64,000 nt of DNA from Marine Group I thaumarchaeote (GTDB taxonomy: Archaea > Thermoproteota > Nitrososphaeria > Nitrososphaerales > Nitrosopumilaceae). Location: assembly GCA_013390745.1 (NCBI GenBank), contig JACASX010000005.1, forward strand, positions 1-64,000, in the 5' to 3' direction. The position numbers and the translations under genes were made by a program. The notes below the pieces were generated by a model. The model was given only the letters and a program-made list of their open reading frames with translations. It was not told where the DNA came from and did no database searches. Of the stretch, positions 37,768 through 60,467 are shown in pieces. Within the stretch, counting starts at the first letter, position 1, and every line of letters begins with the position of its first letter.

Positions 37768-37770
37768 AAA

Positions 37771-38070: not shown

Positions 38071-38104
38071 ATCAGAATATGACTTGTAAACCCTATTTTA
38101 ATAC

Positions 38105-39209: not shown

Positions 39210-39226
39210 TACCGTATTGTACGGTA
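39210..39226. promoter_or_regulatory. radA operator candidate TACCGTA-TTG-TACGGTA
   Basis: A perfect 7-base inverted repeat with a 3-base centre begins 2 bases before the radA ATG and ends before a TATA-like ACTTAAGTA on the coding strand. A repressor here would cover the start site of a leaderless transcript. The same 7-base arm, in the other orientation, forms the repeat in front of a zinc-finger gene 21 kb downstream. Confidence 0.6.
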
Positions 39227-39292
39227 CCCATACTTAAGTTTGTTCTTTTATTACTTTTATCTCAAAGTGAAAAATTGGTGTAAAATTAACGA

Positions 39293-39481
39293 TTAGTTTC
39301 TACGTGGTCTTCGCCTTCGTCCAGGTTTGTTTTGACCGGGAACTCTCGAGAGAATAAATCGTTTCCTAAAGTTACTTTTATTTCTCAGACTAGCAGAAGT
39401 GCCTACACGTTTACGACCTTCTACCTTTGGTGTCTGGCCTCTAACTTTACCTGCTTTGGTAAGTGAACCGTGTGTTGGCAT
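39293..39481 (-). CDS. rps30e: 30S ribosomal protein S30e
   Basis: 62 residues: MPTHGSLTKAGKVRGQTPKV, ending PGQNKPGRRRRPRRN. This is archaeal/eukaryotic S30e (the ribosomal half of the FAU protein), with no ubiquitin-like fusion. Monocistronic in front of radA. Confidence 0.95.
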   Translation of the reverse strand: MPTHGSLTKAGKVRGQTPKVEGRKRVGTSASLRNKSNFRKRFILSRVPGQNKPGRRRRPRRN

Positions 39482-39525
39482 AGTAAATCGGTTAGTTGTT
39501 GGAATTTATGTATTTGTATATTGAC

Positions 39526-41253
39526 CTACCAGTAATTTGCTTTGACCTTTTCAAGCACCCTTTCATGCTCTCCACCCTTCCGCCTTGCATATTTTTCCAT
39601 AGCACCAAGTGGAACACCGCCCAGAGTTCTGGCTAGACCATTAAATGCTGCTCGTCTAAAAGATCCACGCTGACCAGTTTTGCTCATAAACTTCTTTATT
39701 CCATATTTGAAATTATGCTGCCAAGTCTTGTACATTACAGCAAGTTGTGTTGGATCTGAATCGTTGCCCATATCATAAAACTCTGATTTTTCAAGCAAGC
39801 CTATTGGAATGAACGTTAATGGGGTGGCTGTAAACATAGAGTCAGGCTGTTCCTGTTCAAGCTCACTAATGAGTCTGATTGTTTCCCAGCCATCTTCAGG
39901 TGTCTCATCGTTATCAAGACCCATGATTAATGTAAACGCAGGAATCCAATGATTCTCGTTTAAGGTTTTAACAGACTCTTTGACAACCCAATGCCATTCT
40001 TCTGGCTGGTATGGAGCAAGTTTTCTATCAGCATATTTTTCAATTAATCTTATGCTTCCAGTCTCCAATCCACATTGAATACCTATCAGGTTATCTGCAC
40101 TAGCGTTAATTATCTTTGATAGATTTGGGATTAGTTTCTCGTCTGCAATTGCACCTGCCAGCGTTCCATGAGTTGGGTTTGTATGTTTAACACCAGTAGA
40201 CATGATTGCGGTGAACAGTTCCTCAAGAGCATCACGGTTGGGTTCCATGTTTTTTGTGGTAGTTGGATCCATGCCATAAACAAAAATGTCATCACTATGA
40301 ACCCAAGCTCTATCAAGTCCACCTTTCTTTATGTTCACTTCGATTTCTTTAACTACTTTTTCAGGAGAATAGTATCTTAATGATCTTAATGTAACATCAC
40401 AAAACTTACAGCCTCTTCCACATCCACGCATCACCTCTATCATGCCATGCATGGTTGGTCCAACAATTTCTGGAATATCATCTAGGTCTGGTCTGTCCCA
40501 AAAGTTGACAAACCTTCCATGAATTGTTTTTCCATCGTGTTTAAACTCTTTAATGTCAACTTTGAAATCCTTTCTTTTTCTGAAAGGATCCATATTTTCA
40601 AATTGGCCATCAATTAGATATCTAAAGAAGTCACCCGCATGCCCATCTATTTCAGGAGCAATTCCACCAAGTTCCCCTTCTAAAATTGCATACAAACCAT
40701 ATTCTTCAATCTTTTCAGGTGCATAGTTATACTGCCAAGTACCGGAAGCGCCAGCAATTACCTTTGCATGACTGCCAGTTTTTTTCTTTGCCGCATTGAT
40801 TCGTTGATGTAGTTCACGGCAGTAAAACTCATCGTAAGACATCTGCCTTCTCCCAAATGTGAAAGTCATGGTTACTGGTCCCATTCCAAGTGGATCCATT
40901 TCATGAGTTCCAACAACCTCAGTTTCAGGTCCAATGAATTTTTCAATATGATCAGGATGGGCAACTACTACGTCCTCACGTTTGAAACCGTCACGAAGTA
41001 ATCCAGCCTCTACTTTGCGTAAACCATATGGGGCATATTTTGCCACGCCGTTGATATGAGGTGCATAATTACAAATAAAATCAAACAAAATTTTTGGTGT
41101 TACCTGATTTCCTAAAATCTTGTACCAAATACTGCTTTTATCACGATTTGGATCAAGTGCCGGCGCGCATCCAAAAAATGTAGCCAACGAAAGTCCACGA
41201 TATAAGGACATTAATGTTCGATCTGCGGTTAAAACGATCTTTGGACTTGGCAT
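39526..41253 (-). CDS. Radical SAM protein with N-terminal B12-binding-like region
   Basis: 575 residues. The first 270 (IVLTADRTLMSLYRG..FFGCAPAL, AHPDHIEKFIG, ASGTWQYNY) look like a Rossmann/B12-type region; the radical SAM core starts with EVMRGCGRGCKFCDVTLR (Cys-x3-Cys-x2-Cys), then GIQCGLETGSIRLIEKYA and FTLIMGLDNDETPEDGWETI. The C-terminus is basic. Archaeal members of this broad class include the GDGT ring synthases, so a role in membrane-lipid modification is one possibility; it is not established here. Confidence 0.85.
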   Translation of the reverse strand: MPSPKIVLTADRTLMSLYRGLSLATFFGCAPALDPNRDKSSIWYKILGNQVTPKILFDFICNYAPHINGVAKYAPYGLRKVEAGLLRDGFKREDVVVAHPDHIEKFIGPETEVVGTHEMDPLGMGPVTMTFTFGRRQMSYDEFYCRELHQRINAAKKKTGSHAKVIAGASGTWQYNYAPEKIEEYGLYAILEGELGGIAPEIDGHAGDFFRYLIDGQFENMDPFRKRKDFKVDIKEFKHDGKTIHGRFVNFWDRPDLDDIPEIVGPTMHGMIEVMRGCGRGCKFCDVTLRSLRYYSPEKVVKEIEVNIKKGGLDRAWVHSDDIFVYGMDPTTTKNMEPNRDALEELFTAIMSTGVKHTNPTHGTLAGAIADEKLIPNLSKIINASADNLIGIQCGLETGSIRLIEKYADRKLAPYQPEEWHWVVKESVKTLNENHWIPAFTLIMGLDNDETPEDGWETIRLISELEQEQPDSMFTATPLTFIPIGLLEKSEFYDMGNDSDPTQLAVMYKTWQHNFKYGIKKFMSKTGQRGSFRRAAFNGLARTLGGVPLGAMEKYARRKGGEHERVLEKVKANYW

Positions 41254-41304
41254 TGCGCTAACGTTCGATTTTAGTTATTCAGTTTAAACCTTTTGAACAT
41301 GATT

Positions 41305-42132
41305 CTACACCTTCTCCAATATTCCAGATTTTGCCCTATGTTGGTAACCAAATTCAGCATTTTGCATTAAATGATCCCCATCAAAAATAGTGCCATCTCG
41401 ACACACCAGATCTTCATTAATACAACAGCTTCCACAGATACCAACACCACATTTCATCATGCGTTCAAGGCTTGCTTGAACAAAAATCTGGTTTGATCTT
41501 GCTAGGTTCACTGTCTTATACATCATAAGTTCCGGTCCACAAGTATAAACTGCATCAAAACTATTCTGTCCAAGCAATTCCTCTAATACATCAGTAACAA
41601 ATCCTTTTTTTCCATATGTCCCATCTTCTGTCACGACAATTATTTGGTGTTTATTCTTTTCAAGTAATTTGTTTGCTAGATCTTCAAAAAAAACTTCTTC
41701 CTTTGTCTGAGAACCAATCAAAAGTGTAATCTCATGTGAAGGTTTACAGAAAGTTATCAGTCGTAATAAAGGAACCAATCCAGTTCCTCCACCAACTAGC
41801 AATAGTTTTCCATCCTTGATGTCAAAACAATTTCCATATGGACCACGAACCCCAATATAATCACCCACAGAAAGATTATACATTCCAGTTGATGATTCGC
41901 CTCGCTTTCTAACTGTAAATGCAGCTTTGCCATTCTCTTGTGTGACCATTACGCTCATTGGTAATTCGTTAACGCCTGGAATCCACACCATTGCAAATTG
42001 ACCAGGTAAAACTTTGGATAATACTTGATCAGTAAAGATCAAGGTACGCACAGTTGGTGTTTCATCAATAATTTTTTCAACCGTACACATGTAATGGCTA
42101 TTAGGATCCCTTTGACTGTCCAACCATCTCAC
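41305..42132 (-). CDS. pyrK: Dihydroorotate dehydrogenase electron-transfer subunit (PyrK)
   Basis: 275 residues from the first ATG; an ATG 42 bases later would remove overlap with pyrD and give 261. FAD-binding VRGPYGNCF, GGGTGLVPLLRL and the [2Fe-2S] cysteines in MKCGVGICGSCCINEDLVCRDG identify PyrK, which passes electrons from dihydroorotate dehydrogenase to NAD or a quinone. It overlaps the end of pyrD. Confidence 0.92.
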   Translation of the reverse strand: MRWLDSQRDPNSHYMCTVEKIIDETPTVRTLIFTDQVLSKVLPGQFAMVWIPGVNELPMSVMVTQENGKAAFTVRKRGESSTGMYNLSVGDYIGVRGPYGNCFDIKDGKLLLVGGGTGLVPLLRLITFCKPSHEITLLIGSQTKEEVFFEDLANKLLEKNKHQIIVVTEDGTYGKKGFVTDVLEELLGQNSFDAVYTCGPELMMYKTVNLARSNQIFVQASLERMMKCGVGICGSCCINEDLVCRDGTIFDGDHLMQNAEFGYQHRAKSGILEKV

Positions 42133-43009
42133 CTATACTCGAATATCCCTTTTGTTCCATATAATTCTGAATTCCACTGTTTATCTCCGCAAAAACTTCT
42201 GTCCAATGCTCACCCAATACACTACCAAACTGTACAGCACATGCGCCCGCAAGAATAAATTCTACAGCATCTTGCCAGGTAGAAATACCACCACATCCAA
42301 TAATGGGAACGTCAAACTTGGATGAAATTTCATAAACACATCTAACAGCAATTGGCTTAATGGGAGTTCCAGATAAACCACCAATTTTGTTACTTAGTAT
42401 TGGTTTTCTAGTTTCAACATCTATCGCCATTGCACGAATAGTGTTAATCGCTGTAATACCATCTGCTCCTGCATCACATGCTGCACTAACTGTATCTAGA
42501 TAGTTTGTAGTTCCTAATCCTACTTTTGCTATAACTGGTACATCAGTAAGTAATTTTACTTTTTTCACAATTTTTTTTACAAGTTCAACATCATCGCCAA
42601 CCTCCAGACCTACCTTAGCTACATGAGGACATGACAAATTCAGTTCGTAGGCTGAAACCTTGCAGTTTTCAAACTGCTTGACCATAAAATCAAAATCATC
42701 TTCCACTGAACCAACTAAACTGACAATTATTGGAACATCCTTGTTTGAGGTAATCATTTTTGCAAAATTCGGTGCGCCTGGATTTGACAATCCAACTGCA
42801 TTTAACCATCCACCACCTTTCACACTAAAGATTGTTGGGTTTGCATAGCCATCCCAAGGTTCCTTACTTAATGACTTTGTAACAACAGCACCAGCCCCAG
42901 CGCGGTACAATCGTTCAAAAATATTAAGTGATATACCCAAAATACCAGAAGCAAGAATAGTAGGCCTCTCAAGAGTTAATGTTCCTATTGAAGTTGAGAG
43001 ACTGACTGC
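42101..43009 (-). CDS. pyrD: Dihydroorotate dehydrogenase, catalytic subunit
   Basis: 302 residues from an internal GTG. That start is preferred over an upstream ATG (111 bases earlier, overlapping the divergent nop5 gene) because the family begins at ILASGILG and a TATA box (TTATATGA) lies about 26 bases before the GTG. Family residues include NAVGLSNPG, YELNLSCPH (Cys of class 1B), VIAKVG and IGCGGISTWQDAVEF. Together with PyrK this is the class 1B enzyme of pyrimidine synthesis. Confidence 0.92.
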   Translation of the reverse strand, partial: AVSLSTSIGTLTLERPTILASGILGISLNIFERLYRAGAGAVVTKSLSKEPWDGYANPTIFSVKGGGWLNAVGLSNPGAPNFAKMITSNKDVPIIVSLVGSVEDDFDFMVKQFENCKVSAYELNLSCPHVAKVGLEVGDDVELVKKIVKKVKLLTDVPVIAKVGLGTTNYLDTVSAACDAGADGITAINTIRAMAIDVETRKPILSNKIGGLSGTPIKPIAVRCVYEISSKFDVPIIGCGGISTWQDAVEFILAGACAVQFGSVLGEHWTEVFAEINSGIQNYMEQKGYSSIGEMVGQSKGS

Positions 43010-43100
43010 CACTTTGAATAGTTTGATTATATTCTCATATAACAGTTGATTATCAAATTGTGTTGTTAACTTTTTAACGAGGACAAAGTCGTTATTTGTT

Positions 43101-44300
43101 ATGTATTCAACTATCCTCACAGAGCTAGGAATTGCAATCTTTGATGACGAGAAATGTTTGAAATCATTTCCTTTTAAAAATCCAGCCGAAGAATATATTG
43201 CAGTTAAAAAAGGTGAATCAAGACTTGGTGAAATTGGAAAATTTCTTGCAGATGGTCAAGTAACAATTGTGAATAATCATGGGTTACTAGATATTTTGAA
43301 AAAAAAATCAATTGATGCACAAATGATGGATAGCAACCAAATGGATAGTATACAATCAACAAAGACTAATCTCTTGATAAATTCAGGGCTTGCAAATGAT
43401 GAAAATGATGCAATGGAAAAATTACGTGAGTTTGCCATACAACTTTCATCATCCAAAGTAACTGAAGTCTCGCAAAGTCCAGACCTTCATCTCATTCAGG
43501 CTATAAACACACTAGATGAAACTGATAAAATAATTAACAGTCTTAGTTCAAGGCTACGAGAATGGTATGGTTTACACTTTCCAGAGCTTGATAATTTAAT
43601 TGACAGTATAAACGGATATTCGCAGATAGTTCTATCAGGTAAGCGAGAAAATATTTCAAAGGAAGATTTTGAAAAGGCTGGATTTTCTAAAGACAAAGTC
43701 GAAATGCTTTGTTTGATAAAAGAAAAAAGTAGGGGTGGAGATATTTCAGAGAAAAACTTTGCCATAGTGGAATCTTTGGCTAAACAGATTTTGAATCTTT
43801 TTGAGCTTAGAAAAAATATTGAAGACCATGTTGAGGAACAAATGAAGGAACAAGCACCAAACATATCTGCGATTCTTGGAACTGCGGTGGGAGCCAGAAT
43901 TTTGGCGCGTGCTGGAAGTTTAAGGAGATTAGCAACTATGCCTGCAAGCACAATCCAAATTTTGGGAGCAGAAAAAGCATTATTTCGTTCGTTAAAAACT
44001 GGTGCAAATCCACCCAAACATGGAATTCTTTTTCAACATGCATTAGTTCATGCAGCTCCTAGATGGCAAAGAGGAAAGCTTGCCAGAGCAATAGCTGCAA
44101 AGGGGGCAATTGCAGCAAGAGTTGATGTCTTTGGCGGTGGATTAAATGAAATGCTTTTGGATAAACTAAGTGTTAGAGTGAAGGAAATTGGGGTCAAGTA
44201 CAAAGAACCTGTAATAAAAGAATCAAAACCTGAACCCAAAGTAAAAGGAAAAAAATCAGGGCGCTTTATGAAACGAAGACGGAAGAATTTTGGTAGATAA
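43101..44300 (+). CDS. nop5: C/D box RNP protein Nop5 (Nop56/58 homologue)
   Basis: 399 residues. LREWYGLHFPELDNLI and the C-terminal NOP domain (LGTAVGARILARAGSL, TIQILGAEKALFRSLKTG, KHGILFQHALVHAAP) are diagnostic. A Lys/Arg-rich tail ends the protein. It scaffolds box C/D methylation RNPs with fibrillarin, whose gene overlaps it by 11 bases. Confidence 0.96.
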   Translation: MYSTILTELGIAIFDDEKCLKSFPFKNPAEEYIAVKKGESRLGEIGKFLADGQVTIVNNHGLLDILKKKSIDAQMMDSNQMDSIQSTKTNLLINSGLANDENDAMEKLREFAIQLSSSKVTEVSQSPDLHLIQAINTLDETDKIINSLSSRLREWYGLHFPELDNLIDSINGYSQIVLSGKRENISKEDFEKAGFSKDKVEMLCLIKEKSRGGDISEKNFAIVESLAKQILNLFELRKNIEDHVEEQMKEQAPNISAILGTAVGARILARAGSLRRLATMPASTIQILGAEKALFRSLKTGANPPKHGILFQHALVHAAPRWQRGKLARAIAAKGAIAARVDVFGGGLNEMLLDKLSVRVKEIGVKYKEPVIKESKPEPKVKGKKSGRFMKRRRKNFGR

Positions 44301-44961
44301 ACAAACATTTTTTTGGATTCAGGTAGAAGGAGAAAAAAAATTAGCAACTCAAAACTTGGTCCCTGGAAATCAGGTTTACAATGAAAAGCTTGTTCAACAT
44401 AAGGGATCCGAATACAGGATTTGGAATCCTTTTAGAAGTAAACTGGCTGCTGCAATAATGAATGATTTAAAGAATTTTCCATTTAATCAAAAATCTGATG
44501 TCTTATACCTTGGAGTATCAACTGGAACTACAATAAGTCATATTTCAGATATTGTTAACCAAGGTGGAACTATCTTTGGAATTGAACATGCAAGTAGAGT
44601 TGCAAGAGATTTTTTAGATAGGGTAGCATCACACAGAAAAAACATCGTACCGATAATTCAGGATGCAAGAAGGCCAGAAGAGTTTTTCTCCGTTTACAAG
44701 AAAGTTGATATCGTATATGTAGACATTGCTCAACCAGATCAAACAAACATAGCCATTGAAAACTGTAGATTATATCTAAAATCAGGCGGTTACTTGTTTT
44801 TGGTTATAAAAACCAGAAGTATAGATGTTGTAAAAGATCCAAAAATGGTAATCAAAGATGAAATAAAAAAACTGGAAACGTTGTTTGAAATCAAGCAAAC
44901 AATTGACTTGTACCCATATGATAAGGATCATGCAATGGTAATAGCAACATTACTGAGATAA
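44290..44961 (+). CDS. flpA: Fibrillarin, rRNA/tRNA 2'-O-methyltransferase
   Basis: 223 residues from TTG. EYRIWNPFRSKLAAAIMNDL, VLYLGVSTGTTISHISDIV and VDIVYVDIAQPDQTNIAIENC are fibrillarin motifs; the SAM loop and the catalytic Asp-rich strand are present. It is the methyltransferase of box C/D guides, translationally coupled to nop5. The end overlaps the convergent RNase HII gene. Confidence 0.96.
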   Translation: MVDKQTFFWIQVEGEKKLATQNLVPGNQVYNEKLVQHKGSEYRIWNPFRSKLAAAIMNDLKNFPFNQKSDVLYLGVSTGTTISHISDIVNQGGTIFGIEHASRVARDFLDRVASHRKNIVPIIQDARRPEEFFSVYKKVDIVYVDIAQPDQTNIAIENCRLYLKSGGYLFLVIKTRSIDVVKDPKMVIKDEIKKLETLFEIKQTIDLYPYDKDHAMVIATLLR

Positions 44962-45591
44962 TTTTCTTTTCTTCATTAAGATTTTTACCGGCTTCCAACT
45001 TTTCCGTAGAAAAGTCAGGTTCTGATTTCTTCGTATTGATTTTTTCACAAAAACCTTAGTTTTTGGGTCTGAGGGGTAACCACTGCCTATATCATATTTT
45101 TTACTCAGTCTAGTTATTGCCCTGTCCCTAGAAACTTTAGCAAGAATAGATGCGGCAGAAACTGTGATAAATTTGCTATCAGCATGATGATATGATCTTA
45201 TCTTCGTGTTTGATGTAAGTTCTGAAATCTCTTTTCCAAATCTTTTGGAATTCACATCACATGAATCTACAAATGCAGTTGATGGTGAAAGTTTGGATAT
45301 CACCTTTGCCATATACTTCGCTTCCAGATGATTCAAAGAATGAGTTGAAACACTCTTATCAATTATCCGTGGAGGAATTCTCACCACATAATAGTCATCA
45401 ACTATTTCAATAATTTTCTTGTAAAGGCGCTCCCTTGCCGTGGGTGAAAGTTTCTTTGAATCCCTAACACCAAGTTTTTTCAAGAGATTAACTTTTGATT
45501 TACTTATGCTGACACCTGCAACAACTAAAGGACCCAACATGGATCCACGTCCCGCCTCGTCAACACCACAAATTTGCATATGGTTTTTCAT
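44950..45591 (-). CDS. rnhB: Ribonuclease HII
   Basis: 213 residues. ICGVDEAGRGSMLGPLVVAG has the first catalytic Asp-Glu, followed by ADSKFITVSAASILAKVSRD with later catalytic Asp residues and GSGYPSDPKTK. It removes RNA from RNA-DNA hybrids. The first ATG or the one four codons later may be used; the gene is divergent from trm1, whose first codons it overlaps. Confidence 0.95.
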   Translation of the reverse strand: MKNHMQICGVDEAGRGSMLGPLVVAGVSISKSKVNLLKKLGVRDSKKLSPTARERLYKKIIEIVDDYYVVRIPPRIIDKSVSTHSLNHLEAKYMAKVISKLSPSTAFVDSCDVNSKRFGKEISELTSNTKIRSYHHADSKFITVSAASILAKVSRDRAITRLSKKYDIGSGYPSDPKTKVFVKKSIRRNQNLTFLRKSWKPVKILMKKRKLSQ

Positions 45592-46782
45592 TTTTTAGGA
45601 GTATTAACCGTTATAGGTAAAAAGAATTCAAGAGATCTATTGCAAAGAATAGAAGAAAAGTTAGTGGAGATAACAGAGGGTACAACTAAAATTCTTGTTC
45701 CAAAAAAATCGCTTGATAAGAAAGTTCCACCAAAGGAACCTGCCTTTTTCAATCCTGCTGCAAAATTAACCCGTGATTTTTCAATTTTAGCCTATTCTGC
45801 TTTTTGGGAAGATTTTGACAAGCCGAAAATATTTCTAGATGGACTAGCTGGTCTTGGCGCCAGGTCACTTAGAGTTGCAAATGAAATTTCAGATGTGGAA
45901 ATGGCTGTGGCTAACGATGTGAATTCTGAAGGCCTAAACATTGCGCAGGATTCCATGAAGCTAAATGAGATTTCAAATTTTGATACATCTGAAAACGAGA
46001 TATGCCGCTTTTTTGGTTCGTATTCAAAGAAGGGGAAGAGAGGTTCAATTGTAGATGTTGATCCTTTCGGTTCACCAACAAAATATTTTGACTGTGCGAT
46101 TCGTGCTACGATGCATGGTGGTATGTTATCAGTTACTGCTACAGATTTGCAGGTGTTACATGGACTATCAAAACGATCATGCCAAAGAAAATACCATGGA
46201 GTGCCAATAAAAACAGAATATTCTAATGAAATTGCAATTAGACTTATTCTGGGCTGCTTGGAATTTGTTGCGGGAAGATTAGAGATTCAGATAATTCCAC
46301 AGTTTGTACAACATGATATGCATTATTACAGAGCGTATCTTAAAATTTTAAACAAACCAGGACAAAAAGAACAGCTTGGATACATTATACATTGTAAATC
46401 ATGTGGAAGAAGAAAATCTGTTATGAAACAGAAAGAGGTTTGTGAGATTTGTCATTCTAAGCTAGATGTTGCTGGTCCACTATGGGTAGGACAATTGTTT
46501 GAAAAAGAATTTGTCATGAAAATGAATGAGATGGTTCCAAAGCTTGTAGTGGATAAAAGATGTCAAAAAATCTTGGAAAAATGTATTCTAGAATCAGAAA
46601 TGCCAGTGACATATTATACACTTGATGAGATTGCATCAAAAATGCAAAAATCTCCACTCAAAATGAAAAACATGATTAAAAAACTACAGGACGCTGGTTT
46701 CGTGGCAAGTCCAACCTCGCTTAATCCAAATGGATTCAGAACGGATTGTAGTATTGATGAAATTATAAAATTACTATCATAA
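45580..46782 (+). CDS. trm1: tRNA (guanine26-N2)-dimethyltransferase Trm1
   Basis: About 400 residues. FFNPAAKLTRDFSILAYSAF, FLDGLAGLGARSLRVA, IVDVDPFGSPTKYFDCAI and TATDLQVLHG are Trm1 signatures, and the C-terminal zinc-binding CKSCGRRKS...CEICHSKLD is complete. The exact start is uncertain: the family homology begins near ITEGTTKILVP and the ATG used here overlaps the divergent rnhB start region. Confidence 0.92.
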   Translation: MVFHFLGVLTVIGKKNSRDLLQRIEEKLVEITEGTTKILVPKKSLDKKVPPKEPAFFNPAAKLTRDFSILAYSAFWEDFDKPKIFLDGLAGLGARSLRVANEISDVEMAVANDVNSEGLNIAQDSMKLNEISNFDTSENEICRFFGSYSKKGKRGSIVDVDPFGSPTKYFDCAIRATMHGGMLSVTATDLQVLHGLSKRSCQRKYHGVPIKTEYSNEIAIRLILGCLEFVAGRLEIQIIPQFVQHDMHYYRAYLKILNKPGQKEQLGYIIHCKSCGRRKSVMKQKEVCEICHSKLDVAGPLWVGQLFEKEFVMKMNEMVPKLVVDKRCQKILEKCILESEMPVTYYTLDEIASKMQKSPLKMKNMIKKLQDAGFVASPTSLNPNGFRTDCSIDEIIKLLS

Positions 46783-46791
46783 ACGATTGAG

Positions 46792-47094
46792 ATGAAGTTT
46801 AAGGCAGTCTTAGAAACAAAAGGAAGGGATACTGGAAAGATGCATAGGGTATGGCTTCTTGCCGTCAAATATGAGGGAAAGTTGTACTTCTCACGAAGAA
46901 ATACCAACAGTGATTGGTTAAAGAATGCACAAAAAAATCCAGATGTAAGAATAGAATTTGACGGACAAAGTTTCGCTGGAAGAGCTAGTTTGGTCAGTGA
47001 TGATTCTCTTTGCAAAAAAATATCTCAGTTAAAGTATGATGATGAAAAGCGTGCGAATGAACCTAGAGTAGTTTTAGAAGTGGATTATAATTAA
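46792..47094 (+). CDS. Split-barrel nitroreductase-like protein (DUF385-type)
   Basis: 100 residues. WLLAVKYEGKLYFSRRNTNSDWLKNAQKNPDVRIEFDGQ has the pattern of F420-dependent nitroreductase/quinone reductase (DUF385-type) split barrels, shorter than usual. It lies 9 bases after trm1 and overlaps an antisense gene by 4 bases. Enzymatic function is unknown. Confidence 0.75.
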   Translation: MKFKAVLETKGRDTGKMHRVWLLAVKYEGKLYFSRRNTNSDWLKNAQKNPDVRIEFDGQSFAGRASLVSDDSLCKKISQLKYDDEKRANEPRVVLEVDYN

Positions 47095-47300
47095 AGAAAC
47101 TGCGCTGCATATGCTAAACCAAATCCTACAACAATTAATCCATACCACTTGAAGTTTCTTTTATTCAAGAATATGTTTGGGCTGCCTATCGAATCTTCAC
47201 CATATGTTCTAGTACGTATCTTTCGCATTTCAATGGCCTGTCCTATCAATGCTATAGTGATTACAGCCAGCGCGGCGATTGCCATAATTGGTTGTGGCAT
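47091..47300 (-). CDS. Small two-helix membrane protein
   Basis: 69 residues with two hydrophobic segments (about 4-22 and 52-69) separated by a charged loop (EMRKIRTRTYGEDSIG..NKRNFKW). No family recognised. It has its own upstream spacer before the AMMECR1 gene, divergent from it. Confidence 0.65.
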   Translation of the reverse strand: MPQPIMAIAALAVITIALIGQAIEMRKIRTRTYGEDSIGSPNIFLNKRNFKWYGLIVVGFGLAYAAQFL

Positions 47301-47359
47301 GTGTTAGGGAATAATCTGTAAAATTTAATGTTTTTTTAATACATCTAAGTTGATCACAT

Positions 47360-49655: not shown

Positions 49656-49744
49656 GTTATGAAATTTGCTTTGATAACGATATTTTAGTTTTACCTCGAT
49701 TCCAGATATTAGGAATAATTTAAACTGGTATAATGACCAAAATG

Positions 49745-50803: not shown

Positions 50804-50843
50804 ACTTCTAGTGTTATGTTTTAGATCATTATTAATAACTTGA

Positions 50844-51287: not shown

Positions 51288-51301
51288 CTCTTAAATCAAA
51301 A

Positions 51302-51955: not shown

Positions 51956-52018
51956 ATAATACCATGGCTAAAAAAACCAACCTCAATTAATATATTCGGA
52001 AAAATTTCTTAGTTTTTC

Positions 52019-52579: not shown

Positions 52580-52939
52580 TTATTTCCCTTCTAATTCATT
52601 AAGAATAGTCCTAACGTCGTAAGCATCAGAATCAACCTCTAGAATTTTTTTGCAACACTCTATTACTTTGTCATTTTCCTTCAAATGTTGATGAACACGT
52701 AATTTGAGACCAAGTGCGTCAGTATCATACTCGTTAATTTCTAAAACACGCTCAACATACTGCAGAGTCTTTTTTGGATCTTGTAGAATATAGAATATAC
52801 TTGCCATTATAACAATAAAATCAGGATCACATTGGTATTTTTCTTCCATACTGTTTCCTAATGCAATGGCTTCTTCAAATTCACCCTCTTTGATTAGTTT
52901 TCGTAGTTTTCTTTTTGGGTAAGAAAATAAGCCGACCAA
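52580..52939 (-). CDS. Small TPR-repeat protein
   Basis: 119 residues with about three tetratricopeptide-type units, e.g. EFEEAIALGNSMEEKYQCDPDFIVIMASIFYILQDPKKTLQYVERVLEI. Such proteins are adaptors; the partner is unknown. No signal peptide. Confidence 0.75.
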   Translation of the reverse strand: MVGLFSYPKRKLRKLIKEGEFEEAIALGNSMEEKYQCDPDFIVIMASIFYILQDPKKTLQYVERVLEINEYDTDALGLKLRVHQHLKENDKVIECCKKILEVDSDAYDVRTILNELEGK

Positions 52940-52985
52940 AATTTTTCAATATTTAGAGAATCCTAGTTAGATTTTAACAATTGTA

Positions 52986-54512
52986 TTACGAAATCTTCAT
53001 GATTCCGTTTGACATAAGCCACTGAAGGCCAGAAACAAACGCATCATCAGGAATCATTCCATCAGCCCACCATCCTGCGTTATTTTTGATCCAGTCGGGT
53101 ATTACATTACCTCCAGTACCTGTTCCCTGTTCAGTAGGTGGTATATTCATCACACCAGTTGAAATTAGCCACTGTATGCCAGAAACAAATGAACCGTCGT
53201 CAATCAATCCATCAGCCCACCATCCTGCGTTATTTTTAATCCAACCAGGAATAGACGTTTCAGATTCTACTGGTGTGGGTGTAAGAGTTTCTAGACCGCC
53301 AGATACTGATTTCTTGCTTTGTAGATCAACATCAAAAAGTACATAGCCAAATTTTGCAGGATCAGGCACACTATATTCTGGACCAGTGCCATAAACAATT
53401 ACAGCAAATTTTTGCAGTCCAGGATCTCCTTGCATCTGCCAATGTCTTTGTGCTTTTCCTGATACAGAAAATAACTTGTCATATCCTTCATCATCAGCGG
53501 CAGAAGCTATTGGTATTGTTTGACCATCTATCACATTGACTTTTAAAATGTCATAATGCACCTGATTTTCAAACAAGTCCGTAGAAAATGCTTTCTTAAA
53601 TTCTAAACTCCAGTAAATGTCACATCCAATTCTAGGTTTTTCAGGACCATATAGTATGTTAATAACCATTGAGTTCGTGTTTGTATTTTCATAAATTTTT
53701 ACCAATTCATAATTAGTAATACAACCCTCTCCCTTCTTTGTCGCTCCCGTATCTATAATACCTGCAAATGGACTTGAAGAAACATTTTCTCTGTATTCAT
53801 ATAATGAAAATCTGTATTCTGGAGGTGGTATTCCTTCCGTCACCTGAACCCACGTGTTGGCTTTCACTGGGAAAGGAAAATCATCAACAACGGAAATGTG
53901 ACTGGTTATGCCACCACTCTTCCAACCAACAAGAATTGTATCATATTCGCCTGCTGGAACGGTTATAGTTTCCATTCCTATAGGCGATACTTGTTCACCA
54001 CCAATATTTGCAATCTTGCCCCATGATACCTTGGAGAATGCCTTTGGTCCTTTACCAGGCTGATCAATTTCTGCAGTAGCAAAAGAAGAAAGCCACGTAA
54101 TTGAATTTTTGTATACAGATGCATATTCCAAAATATTATCACTGACAGTACCACCTATAGGCTCTGGAGCAACTTTGCCTACATCCATGTAGCCTTTTAG
54201 TATCTTGTTTCCATCTTCAACTAGAACTTGAAAACGAAGCATATCTTCAGGACCATCAAACACTTCCTTTTCTAGCCACATTGAAAACCAAAAATCTGTA
54301 CAATCCTTGTATTCTGCATGACATACTTTGTACTTGAAGTAATCACCAACTTTGAGATTTTCACCCGGATACCAGGATCCAGGATGATTAACACCGCCAA
54401 GACCTGCACCAATGCCAGAACCAGCAGACACATGATCCGCAAATGTTGCTGGAACAACACTACCACTAACAAGAATAACTGAAAATAAAACTATGAAAAT
54501 TGTATTACGCAT
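52986..54512 (-). CDS. Secreted protein with C-terminal WIKNNAGWWADG repeats
   Basis: 508 residues. Signal peptide about 1-25 (ends ATFADHVS). The central part (about 30-400) is beta-rich with regions DYFKYKVCHAEY and VSWGKIANIGGEQ; it has no recognised catalytic motif. The C-terminus has two repeats of 38 residues (421-458 and 471-508), each with WIKNNAGWWADG and FVSGxQWL, a repeat widespread in thaumarchaeal secreted proteins. A role at the S-layer or in cell contact is inferred. Confidence 0.88.
   Translation of the reverse strand: MRNTIFIVLFSVILVSGSVVPATFADHVSAGSGIGAGLGGVNHPGSWYPGENLKVGDYFKYKVCHAEYKDCTDFWFSMWLEKEVFDGPEDMLRFQVLVEDGNKILKGYMDVGKVAPEPIGGTVSDNILEYASVYKNSITWLSSFATAEIDQPGKGPKAFSKVSWGKIANIGGEQVSPIGMETITVPAGEYDTILVGWKSGGITSHISVVDDFPFPVKANTWVQVTEGIPPPEYRFSLYEYRENVSSSPFAGIIDTGATKKGEGCITNYELVKIYENTNTNSMVINILYGPEKPRIGCDIYWSLEFKKAFSTDLFENQVHYDILKVNVIDGQTIPIASAADDEGYDKLFSVSGKAQRHWQMQGDPGLQKFAVIVYGTGPEYSVPDPAKFGYVLFDVDLQSKKSVSGGLETLTPTPVESETSIPGWIKNNAGWWADGLIDDGSFVSGIQWLISTGVMNIPPTEQGTGTGGNVIPDWIKNNAGWWADGMIPDDAFVSGLQWLMSNGIMKIS
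52989..53102 (-). repeat. WIKNNAGWWADG coding repeat, copy 2
   Basis: Encodes IPDWIKNNAGWWADGMIPDD and its continuation to the stop. The DNA is nearly identical to the copy 150 bases upstream over the stretch coding WWADG and NNAG, suggesting recent duplication or conversion. Confidence 0.75.
53139..53252 (-). repeat. WIKNNAGWWADG coding repeat, copy 1
   Basis: Encodes IPGWIKNNAGWWADGLIDDG and continuation. It precedes a Gly/Thr-rich linker (TEQGTGTGGNV) and the second copy. Confidence 0.75.
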
Positions 54513-54571
54513 ACAATGTTAATACTCGTCAAAGTTAGTTAAATGTTGCAAATAAGCAAATATAGAGGATA

Positions 54572-54757
54572 GTGTTCGATTTATTGGATATGTGTGAATG
54601 CCCAAAAATACACTTTTACGAAGTTGAATTCAAACTTGATGGTATGATTGTTGTCCCAACGCATAAAAACTGTGGAGATAGATTAAATGAAAAACAAGCT
54701 GACACATTTCAGAAAGAGTTAGTCAAATCATGGGGATTTGAAGAAGAAGAGGAATAA
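54572..54757 (+). CDS. Small Cys-containing acidic protein
   Basis: 61 residues from GTG (or 55 from an internal ATG): CECPKIHFYEVEFKLDGMI...HKNCGDRLNEKQADTFQKELVK and an acidic end. Three Cys and a His could bind a metal. Not recognised. It points away from the repeat protein and towards the Cys-rich peptide gene. Confidence 0.55.
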   Translation: MFDLLDMCECPKIHFYEVEFKLDGMIVVPTHKNCGDRLNEKQADTFQKELVKSWGFEEEEE

Positions 54758-54814
54758 TTTTTCAAATAAAAAAACTTTAGACTTTTACTAATAAAAAGGA
54801 AAAAATTGTGAAAT

Positions 54815-54961
54815 TTATTTCAGTCCCGATACAGCTTCTTTGCAGATGCTACATCCACAGGAACAATCTGCACTACAAATGCAGGCTCCTTGCATTTCAC
54901 AATCACATTTGTAAGTGTCATCACCAGTAGCGGCTTCACAGCCACATGCTTGATCCGTCAT
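54815..54961 (-). CDS. Metallothionein-like Cys-rich peptide
   Basis: 48 residues with 10 Cys: MTDQACGCEAATGDDTYKCD continuing as CEMQGACICSADCSCGCSIC and a short tail. CxC and CxxxC spacings (C6,C8,C19,C21,C27,C29,C33,C35,C37,C40) and the absence of aromatic residues other than one Tyr match small metallothioneins, which bind Zn or Cu in thiolate clusters. It is a complete ATG-to-TAA frame, too short for usual gene finders. Similarity to a specific metallothionein family has not been checked. Confidence 0.7.
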   Translation of the reverse strand: MTDQACGCEAATGDDTYKCDCEMQGACICSADCSCGCSICKEAVSGLK

Positions 54962-55053
54962 GCAAAATGGATCATGTACATGGTTTTAAAACTTTATCAA
55001 AAAAATCACACCGTTATACTAGTTTTTTATTATTTTGAGCGTCATGCCAAAAA

Positions 55054-55941
55054 TCATTCATGCGATAAAGAAAGCAAAGAATTTGTGGCCTGATGTAATT
55101 TATTTGCCTCTGACTCAATCTTCGTTGTATCACTTTCCAGATCAAATCCAGTTTTCAATATATGAATTAATTCTGGCTTTCTATGAAGATCTGGAATTTT
55201 TATGAAATTGTTTCTGTTAATGTATCCCAAATAAAAGTAACAATCAGAAAATAATGAATTTTCTATCATATAGCGATATTTCTGGGAAATCATCTTAGAG
55301 TGAGAATTATCCTCTACCAAATCTGAAAAGCCTATAGTTGACTTTAACATCCTAGAAAGGAGAGATGGCGTGGCTCTCTCTATTCCAATTGACTCGGTTA
55401 TTGGTGAGATTAACTCGTTGATTTTATTTTTGTCGAACTCACGGAGTATCTTTAGCATATGTACAGGGCTGGGACGCTGAAAATTTAACACGGATACGGC
55501 ATCAGCAAGAAAATATGCCGCACATTTTAGCCACGAAGAAGAATATGGATCAGTGTTTAATCCATATTTTGTCTTCGTTATACATATTCCCGCTTCTACC
55601 AAACAATTTTTAATGTAGGCGTTAAAAATTTGTTCTTTTTTTTCTTTAATTTTTGATAATAGCATACGAAGCTCCCACTGTTCGTCAAGTAAAATAGTCA
55701 TACCGTCATACTGCAATAAAATATCAGGCGATGTTTCCTGTAACGTTCCATGATAAATATGATAAAATATTCCGTCAGATTCAAGAAAAGACTCTTTTTG
55801 TTTTTTCCCATCAAATATTGTTATATCATATTCACAGCAATCATAGCTATGTCCCTGGCTCTTACAACCCCCCATACCAACAGGGCAATTCTCAATTGAA
55901 AGTTTTTCTAATATGTTTTTAGCTTCCAAATCAAAAATCAT
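55054..55941 (-). CDS. Uncharacterised protein with Cys-rich N-terminus
   Basis: 295 residues from MIFDLEAKNILEKL (an upstream ATG adds nine residues). Near the N-terminus are clustered Cys (ENCPVGMGGCKSQGHSYDCCEYD) that may bind metal. The rest is helical: ILLDEQWELRMLLSKIKEKKEQIFNAYIKNCLVEAG, WLKCAAYFLADAVSVLN and a polar end. Family not recognised; it looks like a conserved thaumarchaeal protein from its orderly composition. Confidence 0.65.
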   Translation of the reverse strand: MIFDLEAKNILEKLSIENCPVGMGGCKSQGHSYDCCEYDITIFDGKKQKESFLESDGIFYHIYHGTLQETSPDILLQYDGMTILLDEQWELRMLLSKIKEKKEQIFNAYIKNCLVEAGICITKTKYGLNTDPYSSSWLKCAAYFLADAVSVLNFQRPSPVHMLKILREFDKNKINELISPITESIGIERATPSLLSRMLKSTIGFSDLVEDNSHSKMISQKYRYMIENSLFSDCYFYLGYINRNNFIKIPDLHRKPELIHILKTGFDLESDTTKIESEANKLHQATNSLLSLSHE

Positions 55942-56071
55942 GAGATTAGATTTTGTATAAAGTTTCAAAATGATAATTTTTTACCATTAATGTAAATGCT
56001 GGTGGTTTTTACTTGTTGTATACGAAAGCAAGACAATTGCTTTAAATTATAATTAATTCTCGTTTTTACGA

Positions 56072-56147
56072 GCTCCTGTGGTGTAGTCCGGCCAAGCATA
56101 TTGGCTTCTCAAGCCAATGATCTCGGGTTCAAATCCCGACGGGAGCA
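56072..56147 (+). tRNA. tRNA-Glu (CTC)
   Basis: Acceptor GCTCCTG pairs with CGGGAGC (one G-T), discriminator A. Anticodon arm TTGGC-TTCTCAA-GCCAA gives anticodon CTC. T-arm CTCGGGTTCAAATCCCGA. A strong TATA box (TTTAAATTATAA) lies about 30 bases upstream. No intron; CCA is not encoded. Confidence 0.95.
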
Positions 56148-56196
56148 TTTTCCTTTCAATGTGTTCCTTAAATAATTCATACTTGTCTTTATTTTA

Positions 56197-56880
56197 TTGA
56201 CGTTACGTGATTTATCCTTAAAACAGGAATATAGATCAGACAGAGATGATGTCGTGTCAGAATTTTTCATTCCTTGTTTAACTAATAGCATTCAGTATGA
56301 CAGAACGATAGAATTTATCTCGGTAAAAAGTTTGAGTACATTGACTTTTGGTTTGGAAAATATACAAAACCATCACGCCAAGATCAGACTGGTTTCAGGG
56401 CACAGATTTACTACTTCTGACTTGAATGCCATAGTAAAGCTCTTTGACCAACATAATTCTGGTAGATTAAACGGCAGACTTTATCTTGATAAGAAGATTA
56501 GTAATCTTATTCAAGATAATAAAATTAGACAGCTAAAGAAGGTAATAGAAGATTTTAAACTTGAAGTGAAAGTTGCTATTCCAAATTCAGAATATGTAGA
56601 TGGGGTTTTTGAGGAACGTATGGGAATATTTAGGGATACAAATGATGATGTTGTTGCTTTTTCAGGTACGTCAAATGTTACTTTTGATGCAGAAAATCGA
56701 AACTTTGAGTCAGTTGATGTTTTTACATCGTGGGATGACAAATCACGTGTAGATACTAAGATAAAGAATTTTGAAAACCTGTGGGCTAATAAGACAAATT
56801 ATGTTGAAATATATGATCTGGTATACGCGGAGAAAAAAAATCTTTTAAAATATACAACAGAATGGGCAGTGTATACATAA
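56197..56880 (+). CDS. Orphan PLD-like domain (helicase N-terminal type), degenerate active site
   Basis: 227 residues from TTG. QEYRSDRDDVVSEFFIPCL...YDRTIEFIS and VAFSGTSNVTFDAENRNFESVDVFTSW match the phospholipase-D-like domain found at the N-terminus of some DEAD-type helicases of defence systems. In the HxK site, the usual FHEKIGIF reads FEERMGIF (about 138-145), so both the His and Lys are replaced and nuclease activity is doubtful. No helicase follows. It begins 50 bases after tRNA-Glu, a usual integration site. Confidence 0.75.
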   Translation: MTLRDLSLKQEYRSDRDDVVSEFFIPCLTNSIQYDRTIEFISVKSLSTLTFGLENIQNHHAKIRLVSGHRFTTSDLNAIVKLFDQHNSGRLNGRLYLDKKISNLIQDNKIRQLKKVIEDFKLEVKVAIPNSEYVDGVFEERMGIFRDTNDDVVAFSGTSNVTFDAENRNFESVDVFTSWDDKSRVDTKIKNFENLWANKTNYVEIYDLVYAEKKNLLKYTTEWAVYT

Positions 56881-56884
56881 TAGA

Positions 56885-57481
56885 TTAGAATTCAAAGTCT
56901 TTCATATCCATTTTTGATGTGTTTTGATAAAAATTCATTCTTGAAATTTTATAATAAATTATTTCGCCCTGTCGTTGTATCACTGCAATGATTGGTTCTT
57001 TACCCATCTTGGTTATTTCTTCAACTTTTTTTTGTAATTTTCCCACCTTTTCCTGTTTGCCCTCATTGAGGCCAAAGACCAAAAACTTGGCTCCCTTTTC
57101 TCCAAAATCTCCTTTGCCATAAACTCTAAAGTCTGAACCAAAACCAAATCCATCTTTAACGGTATAACCTTTGTTTCTTAAATCGCGATAAACTAAAAAT
57201 TTTGTTAGAATATCCCCATGTTGTTTTTTGCAAATTTGTAAAAACGAATCAAAGTCTATGTTCTTTTTTCCCTTAAAAAGAGCAAGTCTGCCAATGTATA
57301 AAAGATAAAGAGATTCAAATGGTTTTAGGAATAATTTATCTTTCTCCATCTCTCCGTAACCTTTCCGCTCAAGATCTTGTTGTCTATTAGGTTCTAAGAT
57401 TATGGTCTGGTTTTTTATCAAGACACCTTGTATTTCTGGGTCTGCTTCAATCGACATGAAAAATTTGCTATTATTTACCAT
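56885..57481 (-). CDS. endA: tRNA-splicing endonuclease subunit
   Basis: 198 residues. KFLVYRDLRNKGYTVKDGFGFGSDFRVYGKG is the diagnostic C-terminal domain, with catalytic Tyr121 in FRVY and Lys161 in GKEPIIAV. The catalytic His, which in homologues precedes the segment AKYLV (EHAKYLV), is Gly130 here (EKGAKFLV). It is either a structural subunit, an altered catalytic subunit, or works with another subunit elsewhere. The window has at least one tRNA gene with a non-canonical intron that needs it. Confidence 0.88.
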   Translation of the reverse strand: MVNNSKFFMSIEADPEIQGVLIKNQTIILEPNRQQDLERKGYGEMEKDKLFLKPFESLYLLYIGRLALFKGKKNIDFDSFLQICKKQHGDILTKFLVYRDLRNKGYTVKDGFGFGSDFRVYGKGDFGEKGAKFLVFGLNEGKQEKVGKLQKKVEEITKMGKEPIIAVIQRQGEIIYYKISRMNFYQNTSKMDMKDFEF

Positions 57482-57534
57482 ATAAGGTGTTAAGTATAAC
57501 CGTTAAAATATGGGCTGAAAAACATCTGTAAATT

Positions 57535-58056
57535 ATGCACGGTGAATGCTACAGAAGAGGCAATGGACAACCATACACTAGAAAGGAGTACATAAAAGGC
57601 AAACCACAAATCAAAATCACCAAATTTCAAAGTGGTAGTGCAGATAGATTGCAAGACTATGATTATAGCGTACAGCTTTTGATTAACGAAAAAATGCAGA
57701 TAACCCATATGGCTATCGAGTCAACTAGACTTGCAGCAAACAAAACACTTGAAAAAACTACTGGAGAAACTGGCTATTTTTCAAAACTTAGAATATATCC
57801 TCACGTCTTGCTTCGGGAGAACAAGATGATTGCAGCTGCTGGTGCAGATCGATTGCAAGAGGGAATGAGAAGGGCTTTTGGAAAGGCAGTAAGTCTAGCA
57901 GCACGTGTAAAGCGTGGACAGTGTATAATGGAACTACAAGTAAAAAAGGAACATTTGGAAGCGGCTAAAAAGGCTCTAAAATCAGCATGTGTAAAACTAC
58001 CTGGAACACCTACAATTCGAGTTGTTCCACTAAATTCATCCAAAGATAATCTCTAA
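57535..58056 (+). CDS. rpl10e: 50S ribosomal protein L10e
   Basis: 173 residues of the L10e (L16-like) family. CYRRGNGQPYTRKEYIKGKPQIKI, ESTRLAANKTLEK and YPHVLLRENKMIAAAGADRLQEGMRRAFG are diagnostic. It sits near the tRNA and peptidyl-transferase region of the large subunit. The end overlaps an antisense small gene. Confidence 0.96.
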   Translation: MHGECYRRGNGQPYTRKEYIKGKPQIKITKFQSGSADRLQDYDYSVQLLINEKMQITHMAIESTRLAANKTLEKTTGETGYFSKLRIYPHVLLRENKMIAAAGADRLQEGMRRAFGKAVSLAARVKRGQCIMELQVKKEHLEAAKKALKSACVKLPGTPTIRVVPLNSSKDNL

Positions 58057-58308
58057 TTCATTTTTATGCTCTTTTAGTAATTGAATGAATTCAGAAAATT
58101 CTTGTTCTGTTGGGTTTCTTTTTAAAATTCTTCGAGATTGGTAATAAAATGAGTTATACAATCTTCCAATTATTATGCCATAACCAAACGCATTTGCCTC
58201 ATCTGTTCCAATTTCTTTGAATGAATCAATAAGTATAGTGAGTTCTTTATCCCGTTCAAGAGCATCATGTATTTTCTCTTCCAGAACTTTTTGGATTTTT
58301 TCATCCAT
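58036..58308 (-). CDS. Uncharacterised helical protein
   Basis: 90 residues from MDEKIQKVLEEKIHDALER; the upstream in-frame part is A/T-rich and Asn-rich and is left out. Helical, with GIIIGRLYNSFYYQSRRI and an acidic C-terminus. Not recognised. It overlaps the end of rpl10e by 21 bases on the other strand. Confidence 0.6.
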   Translation of the reverse strand: MDEKIQKVLEEKIHDALERDKELTILIDSFKEIGTDEANAFGYGIIIGRLYNSFYYQSRRILKRNPTEQEFSEFIQLLKEHKNELEIIFG

Positions 58309-58389
58309 GACTTGATTAGATTGATTATAGTTAAAAAGAATATGAAAAATCATTACGCTTTAATAGACTTGTGCAAAATTATCGATCAG

Positions 58390-58463
58390 GCAGTTGTAGT
58401 ATAGTTTGGTTATTATTCTAGCTTGCCAAGTTAGTGACCCGGGTTCAAATCCCGGCAACTGCA
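58390..58463 (+). tRNA. tRNA-Gly (GCC)
   Basis: Acceptor GCAGTTG pairs with CAACTGC, discriminator A. Anticodon arm CTAGC-TTGCCAA-GTTAG (one G-T pair) gives anticodon GCC. T-arm CCCGGGTTCAAATCCCGG. Standard tRNA-Gly without intron or encoded CCA. Confidence 0.95.
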
Positions 58464-58468
58464 TTGTT

Positions 58469-58903
58469 TTAGTTAGATTTTTTTCTCAATCCATTTTTTA
58501 TTATATCTATTGCTTCTATGGCTTTATCTGGCTTTGGTAACTGAACCATGAAAATTTTGTCTTGGTTAACTTCAGAATAATCTGGCGGAGACAAAGCAAG
58601 CATGGTTGTATTCGCCAAAGACTCAAAAAATTCAAGTGATTCATTTGCGTAAACTAGGAATTCTTCATGTATTTCTCCATAGGAAAAATCAAGCATGATT
58701 TCAACAAAGACATGACCTAATCCATCATGTAATATGTTGAGATTAGTATTAACAGAAACAGGCTTGCCTTGAATTTTTGACATTATATCGTCAAATTTTC
58801 TATCATCTAATATGATCCTAGGCACATTTTTTCCATTAAAATCAAAAACATCAATATCCTTGTATACGCGCTCAAGCAGTTTTTCCATTTCTTCGTTGGC
58901 CAT
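58469..58903 (-). CDS. Uncharacterised protein
   Basis: 144 residues from MANEEMEKLL (an upstream ATG six codons earlier would overlap the antiporter gene). Acidic, with NLNILHDGLGHVFVEIMLDFSYGEIHEEFLVYANESLEFFESL in the middle and IFMVQLPKPDKAIEAI at the end. No family recognised. It follows the antiporter gene closely and may be co-transcribed. Confidence 0.65.
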   Translation of the reverse strand: MANEEMEKLLERVYKDIDVFDFNGKNVPRIILDDRKFDDIMSKIQGKPVSVNTNLNILHDGLGHVFVEIMLDFSYGEIHEEFLVYANESLEFFESLANTTMLALSPPDYSEVNQDKIFMVQLPKPDKAIEAIDIIKNGLRKKSN

Positions 58904-58907
58904 TTTT

Positions 58908-60230
58908 CTAAGATTTAACAAGTTTTGGAATTATTTTGTCTCCCATACGAATAAGGAAAGGTGATATGAACGCAGTAATTATTGTTATCAGCCCAATTAA
59001 CGGGAAAAGAAATGCACTAACTACACCCATGTCTACTCCAACTTTCACAATAATAATTGAAAATTCACCCCGAGGTGCAGATAATGCAAAGGCTGAACGT
59101 AATGCCTTTCCTTTTTCCTGCCTGAATGCCATAGTTCCAAGAAGATTTCCACAAAACTTCATTGCGACAGTGACTGCGATTAGCGCAATTGCGATGAAAA
59201 TATAACTTTCTAATTGTGTTATATCCATCAGTGCACCCACAGATACAAAGAAAATAGCAACAAACATGTCTTTTATAGGGCTAGACAGAATTTTTGAAAC
59301 TTCAGAAGACTTGGATTCTGCCACTAAAACACCTGCCAAAAATGCGCCTATGGCTACAGAAAGTCCTACCACGTTTGCTAAAAGTGCATATCCAAAGCAA
59401 ACACCAAGAACACTAAGCAATAAAATCTCTCTATTTTGCGCGCTTGCAACCTTATCAATTAAGGGAGGAATAACTCGTCTTCCAATTGTAAACGTTCCAA
59501 TAAAAAGTCCACCTGCCACTACTGTGACTACAACTACAGTTTCAATGGAGACAGCACCAACCAAACCAACTGATTCAAGAGATGCAATTAGAATAACAGC
59601 AATAACGTCTTCAACAATTAAAACTCCCAAAACAAGTATAGAGGACTCTTTTTTTATCTTTCCAGAATCTTGTAGAATTTTAATAATTATCGCTGTACTA
59701 CTGATTGATAACGCTGCTGCGATAAACAATGAATCCATAAAGTTTAGACCTAAAGCAGATGCCGCTAGAAAAACTACACCTAATGTGACAAATAGACCCA
59801 ATGTACCAGCTCCAATCGCTACCCTGCCAATTGAACGAATTTTTGCAAACGGAAATTCAATACCTATAACAAAAAGCAACAAGATAACTCCTATGTCAGC
59901 AAAAAGGTTCAATGCAGATATGTCTGACAGAATACCAATTCCTGCAGCCGGACCCGAACTTCCATTTTCCGGTAGAATGGATGTCCATAATGGAGAAAGA
60001 GGACCTATCAACATTCCGGCAAACAGATACCCTATAATCAAAGGCTGTCGAATTTTAAAAAATGCAAGGGTTACTATTGCTGCTAGGATCATAATGATTG
60101 CAAGATCAGTTACAAAAGTTTCGTGGGGAAGCTGCAAAGGGTTAACCCTTTCAATAAATGTAGAAATGTTTTCGCTCAGGGAAGATTGAACACTATCCTG
60201 AGACTGTATTTGTAAAAAAAAATCTCTCAC
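58908..60230 (-). CDS. Monovalent cation:proton antiporter (CPA2/Kef type)
   Basis: 440 residues with about 12 membrane helices. VTLAFFKIRQPLIIGYLFAGMLIGP and FVIGIEFPFAKIRS, followed by LSISSTAIIIKIL (extended helix of the ion path) and DVIAVILI, are features of CPA2 antiporters. It exchanges Na+ or K+ for H+. No C-terminal RCK regulatory domain, so it ends after the membrane part. The N-terminus carries about 30 residues before the first helix. Confidence 0.9.
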   Translation of the reverse strand: MRDFFLQIQSQDSVQSSLSENISTFIERVNPLQLPHETFVTDLAIIMILAAIVTLAFFKIRQPLIIGYLFAGMLIGPLSPLWTSILPENGSSGPAAGIGILSDISALNLFADIGVILLLFVIGIEFPFAKIRSIGRVAIGAGTLGLFVTLGVVFLAASALGLNFMDSLFIAAALSISSTAIIIKILQDSGKIKKESSILVLGVLIVEDVIAVILIASLESVGLVGAVSIETVVVVTVVAGGLFIGTFTIGRRVIPPLIDKVASAQNREILLLSVLGVCFGYALLANVVGLSVAIGAFLAGVLVAESKSSEVSKILSSPIKDMFVAIFFVSVGALMDITQLESYIFIAIALIAVTVAMKFCGNLLGTMAFRQEKGKALRSAFALSAPRGEFSIIIVKVGVDMGVVSAFLFPLIGLITIITAFISPFLIRMGDKIIPKLVKS

Positions 60231-60338
60231 CTATTAAATACACATTCGCGTGTTAAAAGTGATCGCTACAAAAGTTCAATCTTTCCAATGTTACCCAAAC
60301 TTGAGTGGTAATTGTAAAATTACCGTTGCTATTAATAG

Positions 60339-60355
60339 TACGGTACCATACCGTA
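60339..60355. promoter_or_regulatory. Operator candidate TACGGTA-CCA-TACCGTA
   Basis: Perfect 7-base inverted repeat with a 3-base centre, between a TATA-like TATTAATA (60330-60337) and the ATG of a 35-residue zinc-finger gene at 60360. A related half-site, TACCGTT, lies 12 bases upstream. The arm sequence is the same as in the radA promoter repeat. Confidence 0.6.
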
Positions 60356-60359
60356 ATAT

Positions 60360-60467
60360 ATGATAGAATGTGAATACTGCACAAAAAATTTTGTAGAGAG
60401 TATGAATGGCTTGGCTGAGAAAACATTTCACGAAATGTTACATGAGCCAGAAATTGTCAATCAGTAA
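60360..60467 (+). CDS. C2H2-type zinc-finger microprotein
   Basis: 35 residues: MIECEYCTKNFVESMNGLAE...HEMLHE, that is C-x2-C-x16-H-x3-H, one finger with a longer loop than classical C2H2. It is too short for automatic gene finding, but has a TATA box at the right distance and an operator-like repeat between. A regulator or metal sensor is possible; function unknown. Confidence 0.6.
   Translation: MIECEYCTKNFVESMNGLAEKTFHEMLHEPEIVNQ

Follow-up and report, generated by a model that had tools for sequence, protein, structure and literature searches.

In the SOS system of bacteria, LexA acts on palindromic operators at promoters to repress both the gene that encodes it and that of the main recombinase. 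A similar arrangement can be predicted from sequence in the archaeal family Nitrosopumilaceae, where the same motif is present at the promoters of radA and of a gene for a winged-helix (wHTH) protein, although the latter is an unrelated small protein with no protease domain and the targets number about four, radA being the only repair gene found among them. Archaeal regulators offer several partial parallels. TrmBL1 of the Thermococcales, with its TGM operator, is a winged-helix regulator that acts through a palindromic site, repressing from downstream of the TATA box and activating from upstream (PMC4706686); it differs from the system described here in its half-site (TATCAC-N5-GTGATA), its role in sugar metabolism and its 28 binding sites upstream of coding regions, and the wHTH protein does not match the TrmB family in sequence. 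OxsR of Haloferax volcanii is a single winged-helix regulator with a conserved cysteine that likewise represses from downstream of the TATA box and activates from upstream, according to the position of its site relative to BRE/TATA, but it belongs to a different family and has a CG-rich motif (PMC9426492). AspA of plasmid pNOB8 and the Sso10a family have a similar wHTH fold, but the former works in partition and the latter in chromatin, neither with a promoter-specific regulon. Finally, Orc1-2 of Saccharolobus regulates DNA repair genes and has a winged-helix DNA-binding domain, but it is an AAA+ origin-recognition homologue, whereas the wHTH protein has no AAA+ domain (PMC9738581).

The window analysed here is a stretch of 64,000 nucleotides from a Marine Group I thaumarchaeote (contig JACASX010000005.1). 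The first-pass annotation had described in it two palindromes built from the same arm, one at radA and one at a gene starting at 60360, each between a TATA-like box and the ATG. Both were located exactly at the positions given, with TATA-like boxes just upstream: TACCGTATTGTACGGTA (39210-39226) stops one base short of the radA ATG (minus strand, ATG at 39208), and TACGGTACCATACCGTA (60339-60355) stops four bases short of the ATG that opens a 35-codon gene. The features are as follows:

38105 to 39208, minus strand: radA, 367 aa, a RecA/Rad51-family recombinase (Pfam PF08423 Rad51, E=2e-92).
39210 to 39226, minus strand: operator TACCGTA-CAA-TACGGTA, in the interval from TATA box to ATG at radA, where it is conserved family-wide.
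39230 to 39238, minus strand: TATA-like box CTTAAGTAT of radA, from the sequence and aligned radA promoters.
60307 to 60324, plus strand: GGTAAT-TGTAAA-ATTACC, a second inverted repeat, placed before the TATA box and found only in zinc-finger-gene promoters.
60330 to 60337, plus strand: TATA-like box TATTAATA of the 35-aa gene, TATTAATAG being the consensus over orthologous promoters.
60339 to 60355, plus strand: operator TACGGTA-CCA-TACCGTA of the 35-aa gene, in the interval from its TATA box to its ATG.
60360 to 60467, plus strand: gene for a 35-aa C2H2-like zinc-finger microprotein (profile search across genera, alignment, dN/dS).

Each TATA-like box is centred about 26 nt from its ATG, which is the spacing expected of leaderless archaeal transcripts, and the two operators fill the whole interval from TATA box to start. 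Taken one at a time, 7-base inverted repeats around a 3-base centre should turn up by chance some four times in 64 kb, and the palindromes could in principle be fortuitous or belong to a repeat that regulates nothing. The claim that a pair sharing one arm is far less likely to arise by chance was borne out: the window holds three matches with two mismatches or fewer against a mean of 0.07 in dinucleotide shuffles, none of 100 shuffles reached three, and orthologous promoters in many genera keep the motif while the surrounding DNA diverges. The shuffles, together with this conservation, refute chance as an explanation, and we regard its probability as negligible.

The whole assembly (1,075,201 bases) contains four exact TACSGTA-N3-TACSGTA sites, at radA, the 35-aa gene, a wHTH gene and a 35-37-aa CxxC gene; the reversed control pattern does not occur in it. 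The slightly relaxed TACNGTA-N3-TACNGTA was present in all 31 sampled genomes of the genus Ca. Nitrosopelagicus/Marine Group I, in one to five copies each (91 sites versus 9 for the reversed control). Comparing this genus only with the other families of the order, where the exact motif was found in none of 16, made the motif look genus-specific, which was a sampling artefact: it is present in 16 of 18 other Nitrosopumilaceae genera, with 50 sites in all, the two genera with no intact copy being G047 and G061, and its occurrence at orthologous promoters of these genera rules out a genus-specific repeat.

The motif is neither absent from the radA promoters of related genomes nor spread equally inside genes. 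It is kept at radA in 13 of the 16 motif-bearing genera and is degenerate or missing in the other three (no site in G058, one half-site degraded in G048 and G056), and 47 of the 50 sites lie at four gene families: 15 before the 35-aa gene, 13 at radA, 10 at the gene for the 114-aa wHTH protein and nine at a gene of 54-75 aa with a CxxC...CxxH pattern (the 65-aa gene), divergent from trpE; three sites are unassigned. Five further genera carry the motif at the wHTH gene with a 4-bp spacer, beyond the 10 counted with 3 bp, and the 35-aa gene has the operator in 15 of the 16 genera. The clade of the window lacks the 65-aa gene, and a separate 35-37-aa CxxC...H...C microgene (the 37-aa gene) takes its place. 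When one mismatch was allowed in six genomes, the additional matches were mostly further half-sites in the wHTH and radA promoters, plus a few places that were not assigned to genes, and in four of these genomes the control pattern gave about as many matches; a larger regulon was rejected on these grounds. Judged by this conservation, the palindromes are promoter-specific operators of one small regulon with a closed target list. No earlier description of the motif or the regulon was found in the full-text literature searched.

The 114-aa wHTH gene (MRARLTYVP...) lies outside the window in the same genome (G000:C12:9989-10330). Promoters of this gene were read from named genomes, among them Nitrosopumilus, Nitrosotalea, Nitrosotenuis and Nitrosarchaeum, and 56 of the 58 have the operator directly before the start codon, with a spacer of 3 bp, or 4 bp in Nitrosotalea and related lineages. 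The protein is 67-93% identical among the relatives retrieved and 41-45% in the most divergent genera. It was found in the same 16 of 18 other genera as the motif, G047 and G061 having neither, so that protein and intact 3-bp-spacer motif agree in 18 of 18 genera (16 both, two neither), although the radA tree does not resolve whether G047 and G061 represent two independent losses. No full-length relative was found in the 16 other families of the order. The presence of the operator at its own start codon, and the fact that the genera with no motif are those with no wHTH gene, make the 114-aa protein the likely autoregulated regulator of the predicted regulon.

A Pfam search with the wHTH protein gave no family above the cut-off and no TrmB (PF01978) match at E<=1. 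An AlphaFold model built from 37 sequences (an earlier one from 10 close sequences was poor) is a winged helix with pLDDT of about 92 over residues 41-100, whose nearest solved folds by Foldseek are HxlR/MarR/ArsR-type regulators, AspA and Sso10a (best E 7.5e-4). The likeness to HxlR/MarR is in fold only, with no family-level sequence match above the Pfam cut-off; the profile similarity to AspA/Sso10a was weak and its matches marginal, with E=0.09 for PDB 4rs8 and, for NF053610, hits from 10 of 37 members at a best E of 0.0016.

The anatomy of the site argues for recognition of DNA by a protein over an RNA hairpin. The half-site TACSGTA is itself nearly palindromic, and its two copies are 10 bp apart, i.e. 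one helical turn; a third, weaker copy (TAAGGTA) lies another 10 bp upstream in many wHTH promoters and, in some genera, at radA. An RNA hairpin or leader element is disfavoured by the central half-site bases, which show no pair covariation (pairable in 68 of 118 sites versus 54 expected if independent), and by the position of the site, abutting the start codon.

We infer from these comparisons that the wHTH protein binds the operator and represses. A dimer would bind the half-sites one helical turn apart, and, on a site between the TATA box and the start codon, at radA, the 35-aa gene and its own gene, it would block initiation, resulting in repression and in negative autoregulation; radA would be released once some signal lowered DNA binding by the wHTH protein. 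The inducing signal could plausibly be genotoxic or redox stress. We assign a probability of roughly 0.7 to the existence of a small Nitrosopumilaceae regulon with the wHTH protein as the predicted repressor of radA, the zinc-finger gene and itself. This would provide a well-defined predicted regulon for an abundant family of ammonia-oxidizing archaea: a single operator, a candidate regulator that can be named, and a closed list of roughly four target genes, the central recombinase among them. It would turn control of recombination in the family into a directly testable question and give two strongly conserved, uncharacterized zinc microproteins a likely functional context. Besides the radA sites missing in G058 and half degraded in G048 and G056, two other genera run counter to this reading: G050, a reduced genome, keeps the operators at radA and the 35-aa gene despite a wHTH frame that looks broken (G050:C3:4176-4507), and G047, which has no wHTH gene, retains a degenerate radA site. 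Such remnants, also left in G061, are as expected if the site decays after loss of the regulator.

The operator could also be real and bound by another conserved factor, the wHTH gene being merely one of its four conserved targets. The 35-aa zinc-finger protein, for instance, is also specific to the family and missing in G061, and its promoters bear a second, different operator. This is unlikely, considering that motif presence follows the wHTH protein in all 18 genera, while the zinc-finger protein persists in G047 with no intact motif; besides, it is usual for a DNA-binding protein to regulate its own gene, and a single 35-aa finger would hardly read a 17-bp, two-turn site alone. The proposal of the first-pass annotation, that a common repressor controls radA and a small regulator encoded by the zinc-finger gene, is thus upheld in part: a shared regulator is strongly supported by the radA site in 13 of 16 genera and by the four families that account for 47 of 50 sites, but the zinc-finger gene is at most a putative regulator and the 114-aa wHTH protein is the likelier candidate.

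The spacer of the operator is asymmetric (C-N-A/T), and its orientation flips between two classes of promoters. In the radA, zinc-finger and wHTH promoters the site follows the TATA box and leaves a gap of about 0-5 nt to the ATG, versus 31-32 nt at the 65-aa and 37-aa genes, where the site is upstream of the TATA box, ending 2-3 bases from it, over the BRE position; as a result of the flip, most sites of either class point the same end toward the TATA box. By analogy with TrmBL1 and OxsR, which act as repressors when their sites follow the TATA box, repression is probable for the first class. For the upstream class the sign is ambiguous, with activation also possible, because a site only 2-3 bases away from the TATA box is expected to overlie the BRE. 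The wHTH protein may have a dual role, repressing radA, the zinc-finger gene and itself and activating the 65-aa or 37-aa genes in response to zinc or a redox signal and not to DNA damage. The difference in site position and the constant end toward the TATA box fit such a role, as do the change of sign with site position in TrmBL1 (PMC4706686) and OxsR (PMC9426492), the two or three targets that encode small Cys/His proteins, and an invariant cysteine (Cys79) in a protein whose fold neighbours include thiol-sensing regulators. We hold it only tentatively, as a site so close to the TATA box could equally block TFB, the site at the 65-aa gene is also suitably spaced from a TATA-like sequence that points toward the divergent trpE, and a single cysteine does not make a metal site.

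An SOS-like response to DNA damage, a possibility raised in the first-pass annotation, and one in which the wHTH protein would be a functional counterpart of LexA that derepresses radA and itself after damage, shares with LexA the logic of a regulator gene and a recombinase gene under one operator, and radA is a conserved target. It appears somewhat unlikely: radA was the only repair, polymerase or cell-division gene found with the site in the genome of the window, the other genera and the six genomes searched with one mismatch; the 114-aa protein, modelled with one winged helix, showed neither a LexA DNA-binding domain nor an S24 peptidase in searches of Pfam and NCBIfam; and the co-regulated genes encode small, uncharacterized zinc-binding proteins. 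A broader version, a LexA-like damage or stress circuit built from the unrelated 114-aa wHTH protein, with itself, radA and one or two zinc microproteins as outputs, the latter serving as recombination accessories or modulating the repressor by feedback, we consider unlikely.

Regarding the 35-aa gene, the constant length of 35 codons in every aligned orthologue, the invariant C-X2-C-X16-H-X3-H pattern, the median dN/dS of 0.10 and its presence by profile search in 17 of 18 other Nitrosopumilaceae genera (gone in G061, kept in G047) establish, at the level of sequence, that the microgene is a real gene; outside the family no convincing profile score was obtained. A second inverted repeat, GGTWAY-N6-RWWACC, is located 13-14 nt upstream of the first operator in 27 of 36 zinc-finger-gene promoters and in none of 28 radA or 71 wHTH promoters, and this confinement indicates that a second regulator probably acts at the zinc-finger gene. 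A conserved GGGGTATCTGAC element was also noted in many genera 50 to several hundred bases upstream of this gene (e.g. L195:1138-1149 and L044:2081-2092); among the fetched loci it occurs only there, and an Rfam search near the gene gave no match, to this element or otherwise.

Some additional observations concern the neighbourhood and relatives of these genes. The broken wHTH frame of G050 may be a pseudogene or an assembly error. Relatives of the wHTH protein are encoded in two putative viral contigs, L294 (2787-3149; 52% identity) and L295 (about 2498-2860; 36% identity), with the exact operator absent nearby, and might interfere with the host regulon. At the 65-aa gene, the operator is also downstream of a TATA-like sequence that faces trpE, with a leader of 47-89 nt (L216, L221, L214, L218), and trpE may share control with its divergent neighbour. 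In the window, radA is followed, closely spaced on the same strand, by the genes for ribosomal protein L21e and Rpb4/RpoF (37441-39208, minus strand), to which the control of radA might extend if there is no internal promoter.
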